The notes under the pieces were generated by a model that did no database searches, was not told where the DNA came from, and saw only the letters and a list, made by a program, of their open reading frames with translations. A DNA stretch of 64,000 nucleotides from an uncultured Sphingomonadaceae bacterium. GTDB lineage: Bacteria; Pseudomonadota; Alphaproteobacteria; Sphingomonadales; Sphingomonadaceae. The stretch covers positions 248,001-312,000 of the forward strand of contig CANKZR010000001.1 in NCBI GenBank assembly GCA_947488625.1, written 5' to 3'. Below, in pieces: positions 7,790-39,515 of the stretch. Position 1 is the first letter of the stretch; each line of letters starts with the position of its first letter. A program made the position numbers and the translations under genes.

Positions 7790-8605
7790 TTACGTCTGGC
7801 AGTTGCCGCAGAACCAGGTGCTGCGTCCGCCTTGCGTGATACGGCGTATAATACCGTCGCCGCAGGTCAGGCAAGCTTCTCCCTCCCGGCCATAGACGAG
7901 AAAACGGGTGGCGAAATAGCCCAGCTCGCCATCGGGCGCGGCGTAATCACGCAAGGTGGAGCCACCATCGCGAATCGATTGTTCCAGCACGTCCCTGATT
8001 GCAGGCACCAGTCGCTCCAGGGCAGGTCGATAGACGCGCCCCCCTGCCTTGCGCGGATGGATGCCGACGCGGTGCAGCGCCTCGCATACATAGATATTGC
8101 CGAGGCCCGCCACCACGTGCTGGTCCAGCAGCAGCAGCTTGATCGCCTGCCTGCGCCCCTTGATGGCAGTTCGCAGGTGTTCGACGGTAAGGCCATCGCC
8201 CAATGGCTCCGGCCCCATCGCGGCAAAGGCGGGCCAGGTGTCCAGCGCGTCTGTTTCCACCAGGTCGACATAACCGAAACGACGCGGATCGTTCAGAGCA
8301 AAGCGATGGTCGGCAGTCTCGATCAGCAGGTGATCGTGCTTGTCCGGCATCTCGGGGTCGATCCGCCAGCGCCCGCTCATGCCGAGGTGAAAGATCATGG
8401 TCTGCGCGCGGTCTGTATTTATAAGGCCATATTTGGCGCGGCGGCCAAGCCCCGTAACGCGCGCGCCGGTCATTGCCTGTCCCAGCCCGTCGGGAAAGGG
8501 GAAGCGCATGTCGGGCCGCCCCAGCACGACGCGGGTCAGCCGCGCACCCTCAAGGTAGCGCGCCAATCCGCGCACGGTGGTTTCGACTTCGGGAAGCTCT
8601 GGCAT
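7790..8605 (-). CDS. mutM: Formamidopyrimidine-DNA glycosylase (MutM/Fpg)
   Basis: Removes 8-oxoguanine and formamidopyrimidines and cleaves the strand by beta,delta-elimination. The ATG at 8605 gives the mature catalytic N-terminus 'PELPEVETT', with Pro2 as nucleophile and Glu3 as acid; the track's earlier start would bury it. The C-terminal zinc finger 'CLTC...CGNC' is complete. 271 aa, normal length. Divergent from ubiE with 56 bases between starts. Together with nth it gives this window two oxidative base-repair enzymes. Confidence 0.97.
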   Translation of the reverse strand: MPELPEVETTVRGLARYLEGARLTRVVLGRPDMRFPFPDGLGQAMTGARVTGLGRRAKYGLINTDRAQTMIFHLGMSGRWRIDPEMPDKHDHLLIETADHRFALNDPRRFGYVDLVETDALDTWPAFAAMGPEPLGDGLTVEHLRTAIKGRRQAIKLLLLDQHVVAGLGNIYVCEALHRVGIHPRKAGGRVYRPALERLVPAIRDVLEQSIRDGGSTLRDYAAPDGELGYFATRFLVYGREGEACLTCGDGIIRRITQGGRSTWFCGNCQT

Positions 8606-8661
8606 GACACGGGCCTTTATCACCCTTTGCGCAGCGGGCAATTGCCCCTAAGTGGTCAGCC

Positions 8662-9429
8662 ATGAACGACCCAGCAAGCCGCTCGATCAACGACCCCGTG
8701 AACGACACGGTCTCCTTCGGTTATGAAGACGTTGCACCGGAAGAGAAGACGCAGCGCGTGGGCGCGGTCTTTTCCAATGTCGCGCGCAAGTACGATATCA
8801 TGAACGATGCCATGTCGGGCGGTATGCACCGCTTGTGGAAAGACCAGTTCGTGCGCCGCGTGAAGCCGCAGCCGGGCGAGGCCATACTGGATATGGCAGG
8901 CGGCACCGGCGACATTGCTTTCCGCATGGCCGCGAAGGGCGCCGAAGTGGTGGTGGCCGACATCAATCAGGACATGCTGGACGTTGGCATAGAACGCGCG
9001 ATGGAACGCGGTCTCGCTGGTCTGTCGTGGTCGTGCCAGAATGCCGAGACGCTGACCTATCCTGACAGGCAGTTCGACGCCTACACCATCGTCTTCGGCA
9101 TTCGTAACGTGACCCATATCGACAAGGCGCTGGCCGAGGCGCACCGTGTGCTGAAATACGGCGGGCGATTCTATTGCATGGAGTTTTCCACCACCGAATG
9201 GCCGGGTTTCAAGGAACTATACGACGCCTATTCGCACAAGCTGATGCCGCAAATCGGCAAGGCAATTGCGGGCGACGAGGAAAGCTATCGCTATCTGGCC
9301 GAATCGATCCGCCGTTTTCCCAAGCCGCCCGAATTCGAGGCGATGATAAGGGATGCAGGCTTCGTGCGCACGCGAGTGGAAAAGATCCTGGGCGGCGCGG
9401 TGAATATCCATTCGGGCTGGAAAGTCTGA
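8662..9429 (+). CDS. ubiE: Ubiquinone/menaquinone C-methyltransferase UbiE
   Basis: SAM-dependent methylation of the demethoxy-quinol ring in ubiquinone synthesis. The 255-aa protein has 'VARKYDIMNDAMSGGMHRLWK', SAM motif I 'LDMAGGTGDIAFRMA', 'VFGIRNVTHIDKAL' and the C-terminal 'GGAVNIHSGWKV', all typical of UbiE. The N-terminus carries about 20 extra residues rich in Asn/Asp. The ubiB start follows five bases after the stop, so the two are co-transcribed. Confidence 0.97.
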   Translation: MNDPASRSINDPVNDTVSFGYEDVAPEEKTQRVGAVFSNVARKYDIMNDAMSGGMHRLWKDQFVRRVKPQPGEAILDMAGGTGDIAFRMAAKGAEVVVADINQDMLDVGIERAMERGLAGLSWSCQNAETLTYPDRQFDAYTIVFGIRNVTHIDKALAEAHRVLKYGGRFYCMEFSTTEWPGFKELYDAYSHKLMPQIGKAIAGDEESYRYLAESIRRFPKPPEFEAMIRDAGFVRTRVEKILGGAVNIHSGWKV

Positions 9430-9433
9430 CCGG

Positions 9434-10990
9434 GTGACACGTCCCGCAACGCATATCTGGCGGCTTCTGAAATGGGGGCGCATCCTTGCGCGTCACGGCG
9501 CCCTGCGCGGGATCGAGCGTGATCCCAATACGCCTGCGCCGGTAAAGCGCTTGTGCCGTGTTGCGCGTTTCGGCACGATCCAGCCGCAAGAGCCCGACTA
9601 TGCAGGGGCATTTCGCGATATCGGACCTGCCGCGATCAAGCTGGGGCAGACGCTGGCAACTCGTCCCGACCTTGTAGGCGACGAGGCAGCAAAGAACCTG
9701 CTGAGCCTGCAGGACAGCCTGCCGCCGGTGCCCTTCGCCGCGATCCGCAAGCAGATCGAGGACAGCTTCGAGCGGCCGCTGGAAGATATCTTCGCCGAAG
9801 TCGATCCCGACCCCGTGGGTGCTGCATCCATCGCACAGGTCCACAAAGGCGTGACGACAGAGGGGCGCACCGTCGCCATCAAGGTTCTGCGCCCTGGCAT
9901 CCGCGAGAAGTTCGAGCGTGACATCGCCACCTACGAATGGGCTGCGGCGCATCTGGAAGGCATGGGCGGCGAGGCCCGCCGCCTGCGCCCGCGGCTCACC
10001 ATTGCCAACTTCAAGCGCTGGACCAATTCGGAGCTGGATTTCCGGCGCGAAGCGGCCAGCGCGTCCGAACTGGCGGACGAGATGCGCAGCGTTGCAGGCT
10101 ATGCCATCCCCGGCATCGACTGGGACCGCACCAATGGCCGCGTGCTGACGATCGAATGGATCGACGGGGTCAAGATCAGCAATATGGAAGCGCTGATCGA
10201 AGGCGGGCAGGACATGCCCGATCTGGCCCGGCGGCTGGTGCTGGCCTTCCTGACGCAGGCGATCAGCGGCGGTTTCTTCCATGCCGACATGCACCAGGGA
10301 AACCTGTTCGTGAAAGCCGATGGGACCATCGTGGCCATCGATTTCGGGATCATGGGCCGGATTGACCGGCGCGCGCGGCAATGGCTGGCGGAAATTCTCT
10401 ACGGCCTGATCACCGGCAATTACAAACGCGTGGCCGAGATACACTTCGAGGCGCAATATGTGCCCAGTTATCACTCGGTAGACGAGTTCGCGACCGCGCT
10501 GCGCGCCGTGGGCGAGCCGATGCGCGGCAAGCCGGTGAGCGAGCTTTCCGTCGGGCAGATGCTGGACGGCCTGTTTGCCATCACCCGCGATTTCGACATG
10601 CAGACCCAGCCGCACCTCTTGTTGCTGCAAAAAACCATGGTGATGGTGGAAGGCATTGCCACCCAGCTTAATCCGCAGATCAACATGTGGGACGTATCGG
10701 CGCCTTTCGTGCGCAGCTGGATACGCGACGAGCTGGGTCCGGAAGCCGCGATTGCCGATCGCATCCGTACCGATGTGGATACCCTGCTTCGCATTCCCGA
10801 CCTCGTACGCCGGATAGAGGATCGCTTCCCCGCCAAAGGCGGCGCACCCGAAGCGCCGCCTTTGCCCGAAGTTGAACTGGTGTGGGAGCGCAAGCAGCGT
10901 GAAGGACGCGGCTGGATAGGCTATGTCGTCGCCGCCGCGCTGGGCGGGGTGGCCGTATGGGGGGCGACGCTAGCGGGCCTGATCGGCTAA
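9434..10990 (+). CDS. ubiB: UbiB-family atypical kinase, ubiquinone biosynthesis
   Basis: Membrane-anchored ABC1/ADCK-type protein required for aerobic ubiquinone synthesis; it has ATPase rather than hydroxylase activity in studied homologues. The 518-aa product has the diagnostic 'AAIKLGQ' (KxGQ motif), 'AIKVLRPG' lysine, 'GGFFHADMHQGNLF' catalytic loop and 'AIDFGIMGRI' metal-binding motif, then a C-terminal hydrophobic anchor 'YVVAAALGGVAVWGATLAGL'. The start is GTG at 9434, five bases after ubiE, with no ATG nearby. Confidence 0.95.
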   Translation: MTRPATHIWRLLKWGRILARHGALRGIERDPNTPAPVKRLCRVARFGTIQPQEPDYAGAFRDIGPAAIKLGQTLATRPDLVGDEAAKNLLSLQDSLPPVPFAAIRKQIEDSFERPLEDIFAEVDPDPVGAASIAQVHKGVTTEGRTVAIKVLRPGIREKFERDIATYEWAAAHLEGMGGEARRLRPRLTIANFKRWTNSELDFRREAASASELADEMRSVAGYAIPGIDWDRTNGRVLTIEWIDGVKISNMEALIEGGQDMPDLARRLVLAFLTQAISGGFFHADMHQGNLFVKADGTIVAIDFGIMGRIDRRARQWLAEILYGLITGNYKRVAEIHFEAQYVPSYHSVDEFATALRAVGEPMRGKPVSELSVGQMLDGLFAITRDFDMQTQPHLLLLQKTMVMVEGIATQLNPQINMWDVSAPFVRSWIRDELGPEAAIADRIRTDVDTLLRIPDLVRRIEDRFPAKGGAPEAPPLPEVELVWERKQREGRGWIGYVVAAALGGVAVWGATLAGLIG

Positions 10991-33103: not shown

Positions 33104-33417
33104 TTGTGAGACTATCTCTTGGGTTTTCTGTGTCATTGCTAGCAGTCGGCTGTGCAGAAGAGCCTTCCAGCTTCGCTCACGCATGGAACGAGGCAGGTAT
33201 TAATGAAATCCGAAAGTATTTATCCCCTGAGTTCGATGCTGACTTCCGCGCGATCCGAATGATGGAGAAAAACATGCCCGTGACTTGTGGGCAATACCGA
33301 AGGGATGAGGGAGGGGATTGGTACCGATTTGTCGGACAGGGGGAAGCAGGCTTTATCCTAGAAGATGAAGCTGCTGCCGATGTGTTTGCCTTTGCATGGG
33401 AATCTGATTGCAAGTGA
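33100..33417 (+). CDS. Small putative lipoprotein
   Basis: 105 aa. The hydrophobic start '[14 protein letters not shown]' with Cys in lipobox position suggests a lipoprotein; the mature part has two further cysteines ('[12 protein letters not shown]' and the C-terminal 'ESDCK') that could form a disulfide. The TTG at 33100 overlaps the upstream TGA as TTGA; a GTG at 33106 is the alternative. The gene looks visibly more AT-rich than its neighbours, suggesting acquisition. No family recognised. Its stop overlaps the ruvB start. Confidence 0.7.
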
Positions 33418-34454
33418 CTGACCAACCAATCCACACCCCCGACCGCCAGCCGGAAGACCCGGACGCAGCCCTGCGCCCGAAGACCTTGCGCGACTTTGTC
33501 GGGCAGGCGGCGGCGAAGGACAATCTTGCCGTGTTTATCGAGGCCGCCAAGGGTCGCGCCGAAGCGATGGACCACGTCCTCTTCTTCGGTCCACCGGGAT
33601 TGGGCAAGACCACGCTGGCGCAGATCGTGGCGAAGGAACTGGGCGTGGGCTTTCGCGCCACCTCCGGCCCGGTAATCGCCAAGGCGGGTGATCTTGCCGC
33701 GCTGCTCACCAACCTCGAGCCCAATGACGTGTTGTTCATCGACGAGATCCACCGGCTCAATCCGGTGGTGGAGGAAGTGCTCTATCCGGCGATGGAGGAC
33801 CGTGCGCTCGACATCATCATAGGGGAGGGGCCGTCGGCGCGCAGCGTGCGGATCGATCTGCCGCCTTTTACCCTGGTGGGCGCGACCACGCGGCAGGGGC
33901 TGCTCACCACGCCCCTGCGTGACCGGTTCGGCATCCCTGTGCGACTAGTATTCTATACCGAAGATGAACTGATGCGCGTTGTCACGCGCGGGGCGACGCT
34001 GCTGGGCATGGATATCGACCCCACCGGCGCGCGCGAGATTGCGCGGCGCTCGCGTGGCACGCCGCGCGTGGCGGGCCGCCTGATGCGCCGCGTGCGCGAC
34101 TTCGCGCAAGTCAGGGGTGCCAGCACCGTCACCGCGCAAATTGCCGACGAGGCGCTGACCCGGCTGGAGATCGACAATCTGGGTCTCGATGCGATGGACA
34201 GGCGCTATCTCACCATGATCGCCACGACCTACAAGGGTGGCCCTGTCGGCGTGGAGACGCTGGCGGCTGGTCTGGCCGAACCACGGGACACGGTAGAGGA
34301 TGTGATCGAGCCTTACCTTATCCAGCTTGGCCTGATTGCCCGAACCGCGCGCGGGCGCTGCCTCAACGATGGCGGCTGGCAGCACCTGGGCTTGTCCGAT
34401 CCAAACGAATCGGGCCGCGCCAGCCAGGGCGGACTGTTCGAGGACGATGGCTGA
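33414..34454 (+). CDS. ruvB: Holliday junction branch migration ATPase RuvB
   Basis: Hexameric AAA+ motor that drives branch migration with RuvA. 346 aa from GTG 33414, which overlaps the preceding stop as GTGA; TTG 33408 in the track is the alternative. Visible are 'LRDFVGQ', Walker A '[12 protein letters not shown]', Walker B '[10 protein letters not shown]', sensor 1 '[11 protein letters not shown]', the arginine finger region 'LRDRFGI' and the C-terminal winged helix '[16 protein letters not shown]'. Coupled to the small lipoprotein gene. Confidence 0.97.
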
Positions 34455-34690
34455 GCCGCGTGGGTTAACCCGGCGCTAACCATCGCGTCCGCCGTTTCGG
34501 TTCCAATCTGGGACAGACCGGGTCGGCAACCGCAAGAAGCGCATATTTCTGCGCTTCGAGAGGTCGAAAACGTGGTTAATGCGATTGCGTGACGGGCAAT
34601 TGCAGGTCTCATTGGCAGCAACCGGAAAAGGCCAGAGGTGTCACAGGGGCACTCCAAGCCATCCCCCGGCCAAGCTGAGAGAGATCGTTC
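34455..34690 (+). promoter_or_regulatory. Long structured leader of the PEP-CTERM gene
   Basis: 236 non-coding bases between ruvB and the repeat protein. A perfect 8-bp hairpin GAAGCGCA-TATTTC-TGCGCTTC lies at 34536-34557, and GGCC/GGCC and GTG/CAC pairings further down suggest more structure. GAGAGA before the ATG can serve as ribosome site. I could not match it to a known riboswitch, nor find a properly spaced sigma-54 site (GG-N10-GC), although some PEP-CTERM genes use one. Confidence 0.45.
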
Positions 34691-36256
34691 ATGTCGGTAC
34701 GTATGGCCATTGCGAAACTAACTGCTGCCGCTGCGGGCGGTGCAGTTGTTGGCGGGGGCGCGGTGCATGTCGCCGAGCCGCAGTCCGCCCAGGTCGCCTA
34801 CAAGTCGGACAAGGACGCGCAGGACGCCGACGTCGAACTCGCCTATGTAAAGGGTGAGCCGACGGCCCGGCGGACGATACCGCCTCTCCCGCGCGAGCAG
34901 ATGCGTCTGCGCCGCACGATCGAAACCGAATGCTGCGAGGAAGAGGTTGCCGCCCTTGGCGCGCCGCTTCCGCTGCCCCCGCTTCCTTCCGCACCGATAA
35001 GCGGCGGTGGTGGCGGCCAGCCCATCATCATCGGCGGCAGCGGCGGATTTGGTGGCGGCTTCGGCGGCGGGTTCTTCGGCGGCTTCTTCGGTGGATCGGG
35101 TGGCGGCGGCAGCGCTGTTGTCGACATGAGCACCACCACCACGACGGGCGGCGAGGGCGGCGGCGATATCAATATCGATATCGACAACGACAATTCCAGC
35201 ACCGGCTCATCGACCAGCACCAGCTCGGGCGGTTCTTCCACCTCGACCTCCGGCGGGTCGACCTCCACCTCGGGCGGTTCCACCTCGACCAGTTCGGGCG
35301 CATTCACCAGCACGACCTCTACCGGCGGTTCTTCGAGCAGCACCAGCACCGGCGGCGTGACGAGCACAACATCGTCTTCCACCGGCGGCGTAACCAGCAC
35401 CACCGGCGGTGTCACCAGCACTACGGGCGGCGTAACCAGCACGTCGTCCTCCTCCGGCAATGTTACCTCTTCCACCAGCGGTTCCAGCTCAAGCTCGGGC
35501 AGCTCCAGCACCAGTTCCTCAACCGGCGGCAGCACCAGCGGCAGTTCCTCGACGAGCGGGTCGAGCAGCGGATCGAGCAGCGGCGGTAGCAACGGATCGA
35601 GCGGCAAACCCGGCCACGGCAGCAGCAGCTATGGTGGCAGCAACGGCGGCTCTGGCGGCAGCACCACCACCAGCGGCGGTAGCACCACGGGCAGCACGAC
35701 CAGCGGTGCTTCCACAACTTCCACTTCGTCCGGCGCAACTTCGTCCACGACCACGACCGGCGGCGTGACAAGCACGACATCGACGGGCGGCAACACGACG
35801 TCAAGCGGCGGTACCACGACATCTACCGGCGGTTCCACGACGAGCACAGGCGGTTCGACCACCACGACATCGGGTGGCAGCACGACGGGTGGTTCCAGCA
35901 ATGGCGGTTCTTCCACTACCAGCACGAGCACCGGCGGTGTCAGCACGACGACCGGCGGCGTAACCAGCACGACCGGGGGTGTCACCTCGACCAGTTCCAC
36001 TTCGGGCAATGTCACCAGTTCGACGTCGGGCAGCAGCTCGACCTCGACCAGCACGTCCACGTCCAGCTCGACTTCGTCCAGCACGTCGGGATCGACGTCC
36101 ACGAGCAGTTCCACTTCCGGTGGAACGACGGGTGGTACGACTTCGGGCACGCAGGTTCCGGCGCCCGGAATGTTGGTGCTGTTCGGCGCGGCGGCGGGTG
36201 CGGTATTCTGGCGGCGTCGTCGCAAGGGTGACGGCAGCGAAGCTGCAGCGGCCTAG
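34691..36256 (+). CDS. Ser/Thr/Gly-repeat surface protein with PEP-CTERM anchor
   Basis: 521 aa. An N-terminal hydrophobic stretch (residues 6-30, 'KLTAAAAGGAVVGGGAV') may be an export signal. Residues 30-115 include a charged part and a double Cys; 115-145 are Gly/Phe-rich; about 150-485 are almost only Ser, Thr and Gly in loose T-S-T-G-G-V-T-S-T repeats; the end 'VPAPGMLVLFGAAAGAVFWRRRRK' is a PEP-CTERM signal (VPAP motif, hydrophobic helix, Arg cluster) normally cut by an exosortase. Such proteins are exported, heavily glycosylable and linked to exopolysaccharide or biofilm matrix. No exosortase gene is in the window. Confidence 0.85.
   Translation: MSVRMAIAKLTAAAAGGAVVGGGAVHVAEPQSAQVAYKSDKDAQDADVELAYVKGEPTARRTIPPLPREQMRLRRTIETECCEEEVAALGAPLPLPPLPSAPISGGGGGQPIIIGGSGGFGGGFGGGFFGGFFGGSGGGGSAVVDMSTTTTTGGEGGGDINIDIDNDNSSTGSSTSTSSGGSSTSTSGGSTSTSGGSTSTSSGAFTSTTSTGGSSSSTSTGGVTSTTSSSTGGVTSTTGGVTSTTGGVTSTSSSSGNVTSSTSGSSSSSGSSSTSSSTGGSTSGSSSTSGSSSGSSSGGSNGSSGKPGHGSSSYGGSNGGSGGSTTTSGGSTTGSTTSGASTTSTSSGATSSTTTTGGVTSTTSTGGNTTSSGGTTTSTGGSTTSTGGSTTTTSGGSTTGGSSNGGSSTTSTSTGGVSTTTGGVTSTTGGVTSTSSTSGNVTSSTSGSSSTSTSTSTSSSTSSSTSGSTSTSSSTSGGTTGGTTSGTQVPAPGMLVLFGAAAGAVFWRRRRKGDGSEAAAA
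35130..36140 (+). repeat. Low-complexity TSTGG repeat tract with duplicated block
   Basis: About 1 kb encoding imperfect Ser/Thr/Gly units within the PEP-CTERM protein. One 36-residue block (GGVTSTTGGVTST...SGNVTSSTSGSS) occurs at about 35380-35487 and again at 35931-36038, well conserved in protein but diverged at third positions. Confidence 0.85.
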
Positions 36257-36282
36257 AGCTCATACGCGCTTAACGGGGGGAA

Positions 36283-36312
36283 GGCGGTCTTCGGGGGGAG
36301 GCCGCCTTTTCT
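36283..36312 (+). terminator. Terminator of the PEP-CTERM gene
   Basis: AAGGCGG ... CCGCCTTTT: a 7-bp AAGGCGG/CCGCCTT stem with a loop of about a dozen bases including GGGGGG, ending in TTTTCTAT, 27 bases after the stop codon. Confidence 0.75.
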
Positions 36313-36319
36313 ATGGGGA

Positions 36320-36660: not shown

Positions 36661-39336
<2,676 letters not shown>

Positions 39337-39515
39337 GGGCGTTTGGTCCTCTAGAGTATTGCGGATCGGCTCCATACTTGCGAGGGACAGAGCCTGTTCG
39401 AGGGCGACCTGCGCGTTTGCGCCGCTTTGGTCAAGAGGGCAGGTCGAGGGTGTTATAATGCAACGCGGCATGGGGGCCGCGTGTTCCGCATGCGAAAAGC
39501 AGGAGGCGAATAACG

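Follow-up and report, generated by a model that had tools for sequence, protein, structure and literature searches.

Gene organization and protein architecture

The stretch of DNA analysed here, hereafter the window, comprises 64,000 nt from an uncultured Sphingomonadaceae bacterium. It contains an open reading frame (C1:282691 on the contig) placed between ruvB and acnA, with the following features:

33408-34454, + strand: ruvB, upstream neighbour, same strand as the open reading frame
34455..34690, + strand: leader of 236 nt from the ruvB stop to the start codon (from sequence; conserved blocks in homologous loci)
34574..34588, + strand: conserved leader element GGTTAANNNNATTGC, ~117 nt before the ATG
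34691..36256, + strand: PEP-CTERM protein open reading frame, 521 aa, ATG start
34691..34774, + strand: signal-peptide-like N-terminus MSVRMAIAKLTAAAAGGAVVGGGAVHVA (15-row alignment, low-confidence AlphaFold helix)
34775..35002, + strand: charged, Pro-rich linker with a Cys-Cys pair (alignment)
35003..35113, + strand: Gly/Phe-rich block, with a near-invariant GGGFFGGFFGG in the alignment
35195..36154, + strand: Ser/Thr/Gly low-complexity region, 320 aa (composition, tandem repeats)
36155..36226, + strand: PEP-CTERM sorting tail (VPAPG, hydrophobic stretch, RRRRK), TIGR02595 match at residues 489-512
about 36277-36315, + strand: probable intrinsic terminator hairpin with a T-rich 3' side
36661-39471, - strand: acnA, downstream neighbour, convergent with the open reading frame

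The whole protein holds 136 Ser, 106 Thr and 113 Gly residues. Residues 169-488 account for 126 Ser, 96 Thr and 73 Gly, so that this region is 92% Ser/Thr/Gly and 69% Ser/Thr. It is built of imperfect tandem units of 12-30 nt, often 21 nt, and serine is written in the protein with all six codons. The tail VPAPGMLVLFGAAAGAVFWRRRRK scored 20.3 bits against NCBIfam TIGR02595 (cut-off 16), the sole model reported for the whole protein against NCBIfam at E values up to 10. With PF07589 (cut-off 20.7), the whole protein fell short at 18.4 bits, and the tail alone reached 22.2 bits. The earlier note on this DNA had described a PEP-CTERM protein with about 330 residues of nearly pure Ser/Thr/Gly, encoded alone between ruvB and acnA; the tail score, the counted composition and the separate location of the gene all agree with that description.

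The N-terminus reads as K/R followed by a hydrophobic Ala/Gly stretch. In the 15-row alignment, positions M1, S2, A6, K9, L10, G16, A18 and G22-H26 are invariant, and the segment is conserved above the level of most signal peptides. AlphaFold modelling of the N-terminal 140 residues produced a single helix (residues 3-20) and the rest without confidence; with a mean pLDDT of 54.5, the model offered no fold usable for structure search. The Cys-Cys pair in the linker (residues 81-82 of the protein, P0001) is common to many homologs and displaced or absent in others, some of which have Cys in the repeat region instead.

Conservation and selection

With the N-terminal 140 residues as query, homologs were found in 182 of the 301 genomes of the taxonomic family and, among 61 genomes of relatives, in 32, every one of them from the window's own genus. 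Carriers include Aurantiacibacter, Novosphingobium, Altererythrobacter, Sphingomonas, Sphingopyxis and others, with the best matches in Aurantiacibacter, so that the source of the window is probably a member or near neighbour of that genus. When one locus per genome was examined in 56 genomes, ruvB lay directly upstream of the homolog in 51, and in 24 loci the stretch that was fetched included acnA. Homologs keep the architecture and the tail, and the tails that were read still carry VP[AE]P or IP[AE]P. Their repeat regions range from about 109 to 431 aa, with boundaries set by a simple rule.

Comparison with nine congeners yielded N-terminal dN/dS values of 0.06-0.16. Over the 24 codons of the tail, dN was 0 in four of these comparisons with dS of 0.65-1.37, and higher in more distant congeners and in L006. 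The tail is thus under strong purifying selection. We rejected a chance open reading frame because of this selection on the N-terminal and tail coding sequence and the synteny with ruvB. The open reading frame is a genuine, conserved gene of a known kind; its family at the ruvB slot has no specific model of its own in NCBIfam or Pfam.

Within the repeat regions of the homologs, 218 of 300 Asn residues stand in N-x-S/T contexts, often GNVTSS. In repeats so rich in Ser and Thr, composition alone may account for this.

Leader element and terminator

The leader element follows the pattern GGTTAAN4ATTGC. A slightly relaxed form of it is found in 35 of the 51 homologous leaders. Best matches average 1.08 mismatches in the 51 leaders and 3.94 in shuffles. 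The exact pattern occurs at two sites genome-wide, compared with one match of the reversed control. The second of these is:

L170, G000:C1:1437353-1437367: second GGTTAAN4ATTGC site, intergenic between epsB_2-prsK-prsR and a divergent 165-aa gene

This site lies upstream of epsB_2-prsK-prsR and 30 nt before the divergent gene, in that gene's orientation, and is preceded by an additional GGTTAAC ~25 nt before it. The 165-aa product had no family match. The sharing of the element with the epsB_2-prsK-prsR region is only a lead, because the sites are so few and the placement was noticed after the fact. Part of the element, ATGGTTAA, resembles the reverse of a CtrA half-site (TTAACCAT).

Searches for known promoters were negative. 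The best match to a sigma54 -24/-12 promoter had 5 mismatches, with the 51 homologous leaders scoring no better than shuffles, and a consensus scan for sigma70 returned none. Likewise, Rfam models over the gene and its flanks gave only sub-threshold, chance-like matches. The downstream hairpin folds at -27.6 kcal/mol as RNA, but it is not among the hits of a consensus scan for terminators. The earlier note had credited the gene with its own long leader and terminator and, from these, with independent regulation. The leader is there, the terminator is probable, and regulation separate from the neighbours can be argued as far as the conserved element and the hairpin carry it.

The genome encodes XrtA at a distant locus

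Searching the genome for sorting enzymes revealed one exosortase on the same contig (C1:1162745-1163494), ~880 kb from the PEP-CTERM gene. It is an XrtA fused to an EpsI domain, scoring 324.6 bits against TIGR03109 (cut-off 208) and 96.2 bits against TIGR02914 (cut-off 42.8). Its neighbours match, over cut-off, the XrtA-associated EPS export, chain length, ATPase, deacetylase, FemAB, glycosyltransferase and amidotransferase models; the matches of a tyrosine kinase and of a TIGR03016-like outer-membrane gene at the locus both stay below their cut-offs. EpsB_2, PrsK and PrsR, each over cut-off, are encoded in a row on one strand in the same genome. Furthermore, one more PEP-CTERM protein was recovered, next to a PrsT-like TPR protein:

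L035:7329-7994 and 8105-9724: second PEP-CTERM protein, 221 aa, tail VPAPAGALLLGLGLAGVWGARRRK, and its PrsT-like TPR neighbour

The second protein matches the PepA model weakly, and the TPR protein scores 225.9 bits, below the PrsT cut-off of 312.2. The earlier note had remarked that the sorting machinery is missing nearby, which is true of the neighbourhood and not of the genome. Such remoteness is not unusual, because the XrtA locus, the PrsT locus, the PrsKR locus and the PEP-CTERM gene occupy four separate places in this genome. The proposed tie to an exosortase and extracellular polysaccharide, which depended on an exosortase being encoded at all, survived the search, with XrtA standing in an XrtA/EPS locus.

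The gene and XrtA are mostly present or missing together

We scored XrtA as a match over the model cut-off and compared its distribution with that of the homolog in the 301 family genomes. Of 195 genomes with XrtA, 177 carry the homolog, compared with 1 of 58 (G252) that have other exosortases only and 4 of 48 that have none, indicating that other exosortases do not substitute for XrtA. The contrast between 177/195 and 5/106 genomes without XrtA gives a Fisher p of 5e-54, by a test that is blind to shared ancestry; therefore contrasts within genera matter. Eight XrtA-negative genomes belong to genera with XrtA-positive members (G114, G140, G167, G178, G187, G241, G298 and G341), and none has a complete copy. 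One of them, G341, retains a relic between ruvB and acnA (L067:1504-1569), consisting of the start and ~20 N-terminal codons followed by a stop. Another, G298, displays a clean deletion, with acnA ~79 bp after ruvB, and several others have unrelated genes after ruvB. From the relic and the deletion, it seems that a genome without the sortase has little use for the protein. Among the congeners, G009 and G032 have neither an intact copy nor XrtA, yet keep the XrtA ATPase. Conversely, 18 of the 195 XrtA-positive genomes gave no homolog with this query, and a profile search of those 18 revealed no divergent one.

Five family genomes carry the homolog with no XrtA over cut-off. An assembly gap is the likely cause in three (G177, G293 and G252), because the XrtA-associated ATPase is over cut-off in each and the two exosortase matches in G252 are possibly fragments. 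G131 has a homolog with an in-frame TAG and no XrtA ATPase. The fifth is G231, a 99% complete genome in 3 contigs, whose homolog is intact and in which neither an exosortase nor the XrtA ATPase was found. Similarly, the gene is present with no XrtA match in the congeners G007 (99% complete), G004 and G005, the latter two genomes being incomplete. G231 and G007 are real exceptions and limit the claim of coupling. Across the family, the gene and XrtA are mostly present or missing together.

Relation to known sorting systems

The protein resembles PEP-CTERM proteins of the XrtA system (TIGR02595/PF07589) in its signal-like N-terminus, its divergent low-complexity body and its Pro-x-Pro, hydrophobic, Arg tail, and in sharing a genome with XrtA and PrsKR. 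It differs from typical members in that its tail has VPAPG in place of PEP (some homologs have VPEPG), in that its gene occupies the conserved ruvB-acnA slot instead of lying beside EPS or exosortase genes, and in that its family-specific N-terminus and Gly/Phe block have no NCBIfam or Pfam model. MYXO-CTERM and VPLPA-CTERM tails likewise combine a short motif, a hydrophobic stretch and an Arg cluster, but the window protein does not match their models and can be explained without their sorting enzymes.

PepA of Aquincola and Zoogloea (NF033554, flocculation-associated) is also a PEP-CTERM substrate with links to EPS, PrsT and PrsK/PrsR; the window protein, unlike it, has no match to the PepA model. 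PepA in Aquincola promotes floc formation and moves polysaccharide from the soluble to the bound form (PMC9850573). Expression of pepA there depends on RpoN (PMC9850573), whereas the homologous leaders of our family carry no sigma54 signal above shuffles. In a cyanobacterial exosortase mutant, PEP-CTERM proteins are reduced in the exoproteome (PMC12188702). In the literature searched, we found no paper on PEP-CTERM proteins with Sphingomonadales or Novosphingobium.

The protein as a probable XrtA client

We consider it likely that the protein is an exported XrtA/PEP-CTERM client whose tail is cut by XrtA and whose Ser/Thr/Gly chain ends up at the surface or in the EPS (probability roughly 0.8). 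The basis for this reading is the sorting tag, the presence of XrtA in the genome, their co-occurrence, decay or loss of the gene in several genomes without XrtA, and the strong constraint on the tail. With XrtA encoded in the same genome and the two genes mostly co-occurring, the protein is most likely a client dedicated to this already known route of surface sorting. The N-terminal helix would direct the protein to the Sec pathway, and the VPAPG-hydrophobic-Arg tail would keep the protein in the inner membrane until a cut by XrtA that, judging from the family, would fall near VPAPG. The released Ser/Thr/Gly chain, probably disordered, is a likely O-glycan acceptor and may be handed to the surface or to an extracellular matrix that the linked EPS genes produce. 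By analogy with PepA, it would probably form a mucin-like stalk that binds polysaccharide to the cell.

The tail might instead be a plain C-terminal membrane anchor that is never cut, with co-occurrence reflecting common inheritance in one Sphingomonadaceae branch. XrtA and the gene do have largely the same phylogenetic distribution, and in both G231 and G007 the gene and its tail are intact with no XrtA detected there. We nevertheless think this unlikely, as mere anchoring does not need the VP[AE]P or IP[AE]P motif that the homologs retain, and the eight XrtA-negative genomes from XrtA-positive genera, including those with the relic and the deletion, speak against it. More improbable still is that the N-terminal segment stays behind as an inner-membrane helix and that the protein spans the periplasm as a tether instead of being released to the surface. 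The strong conservation of the segment and its invariant G22-H26 would be unusual for a cleaved signal peptide. PEP-CTERM proteins in general, however, have cleaved signal peptides, and AVHVAEPQ, just after the segment, reads as a possible cleavage region. The signal of PepA also appeared cleaved (PMC9850573).

That the open reading frame is a functionless by-product of expanding GC-rich repeats is scarcely credible. Its low complexity, its imperfect tandem units and the variable length of the repeats in homologs would fit such an origin, but selection and conservation already contradict it: the flanking coding segments evolve at the low dN/dS given above, tail dN is near 0 in most close comparisons, and orthologs keep position and architecture. 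The use of all six Ser codons likewise means that the residue is kept, and not a DNA repeat.

Beyond the XrtA-client reading, a broader proposal is possible, though we hold it doubtful as a whole: the family may be the main dedicated XrtA client in Sphingomonadaceae, inherited vertically at the ruvB slot, lost together with XrtA and expressed not through RpoN but through the CtrA half-site-like GGTTAAN4ATTGC, an element it would share with epsB-prsK-prsR.

The protein belongs to a kind already known, PEP-CTERM, and the points of interest are its coupling to XrtA and a conserved leader element that is not of the sigma54 type. Exosortase A substrates and their purpose have been little tested in Alphaproteobacteria, and a syntenic substrate that tracks XrtA across 177 of 195 genomes provides a clean natural reporter.
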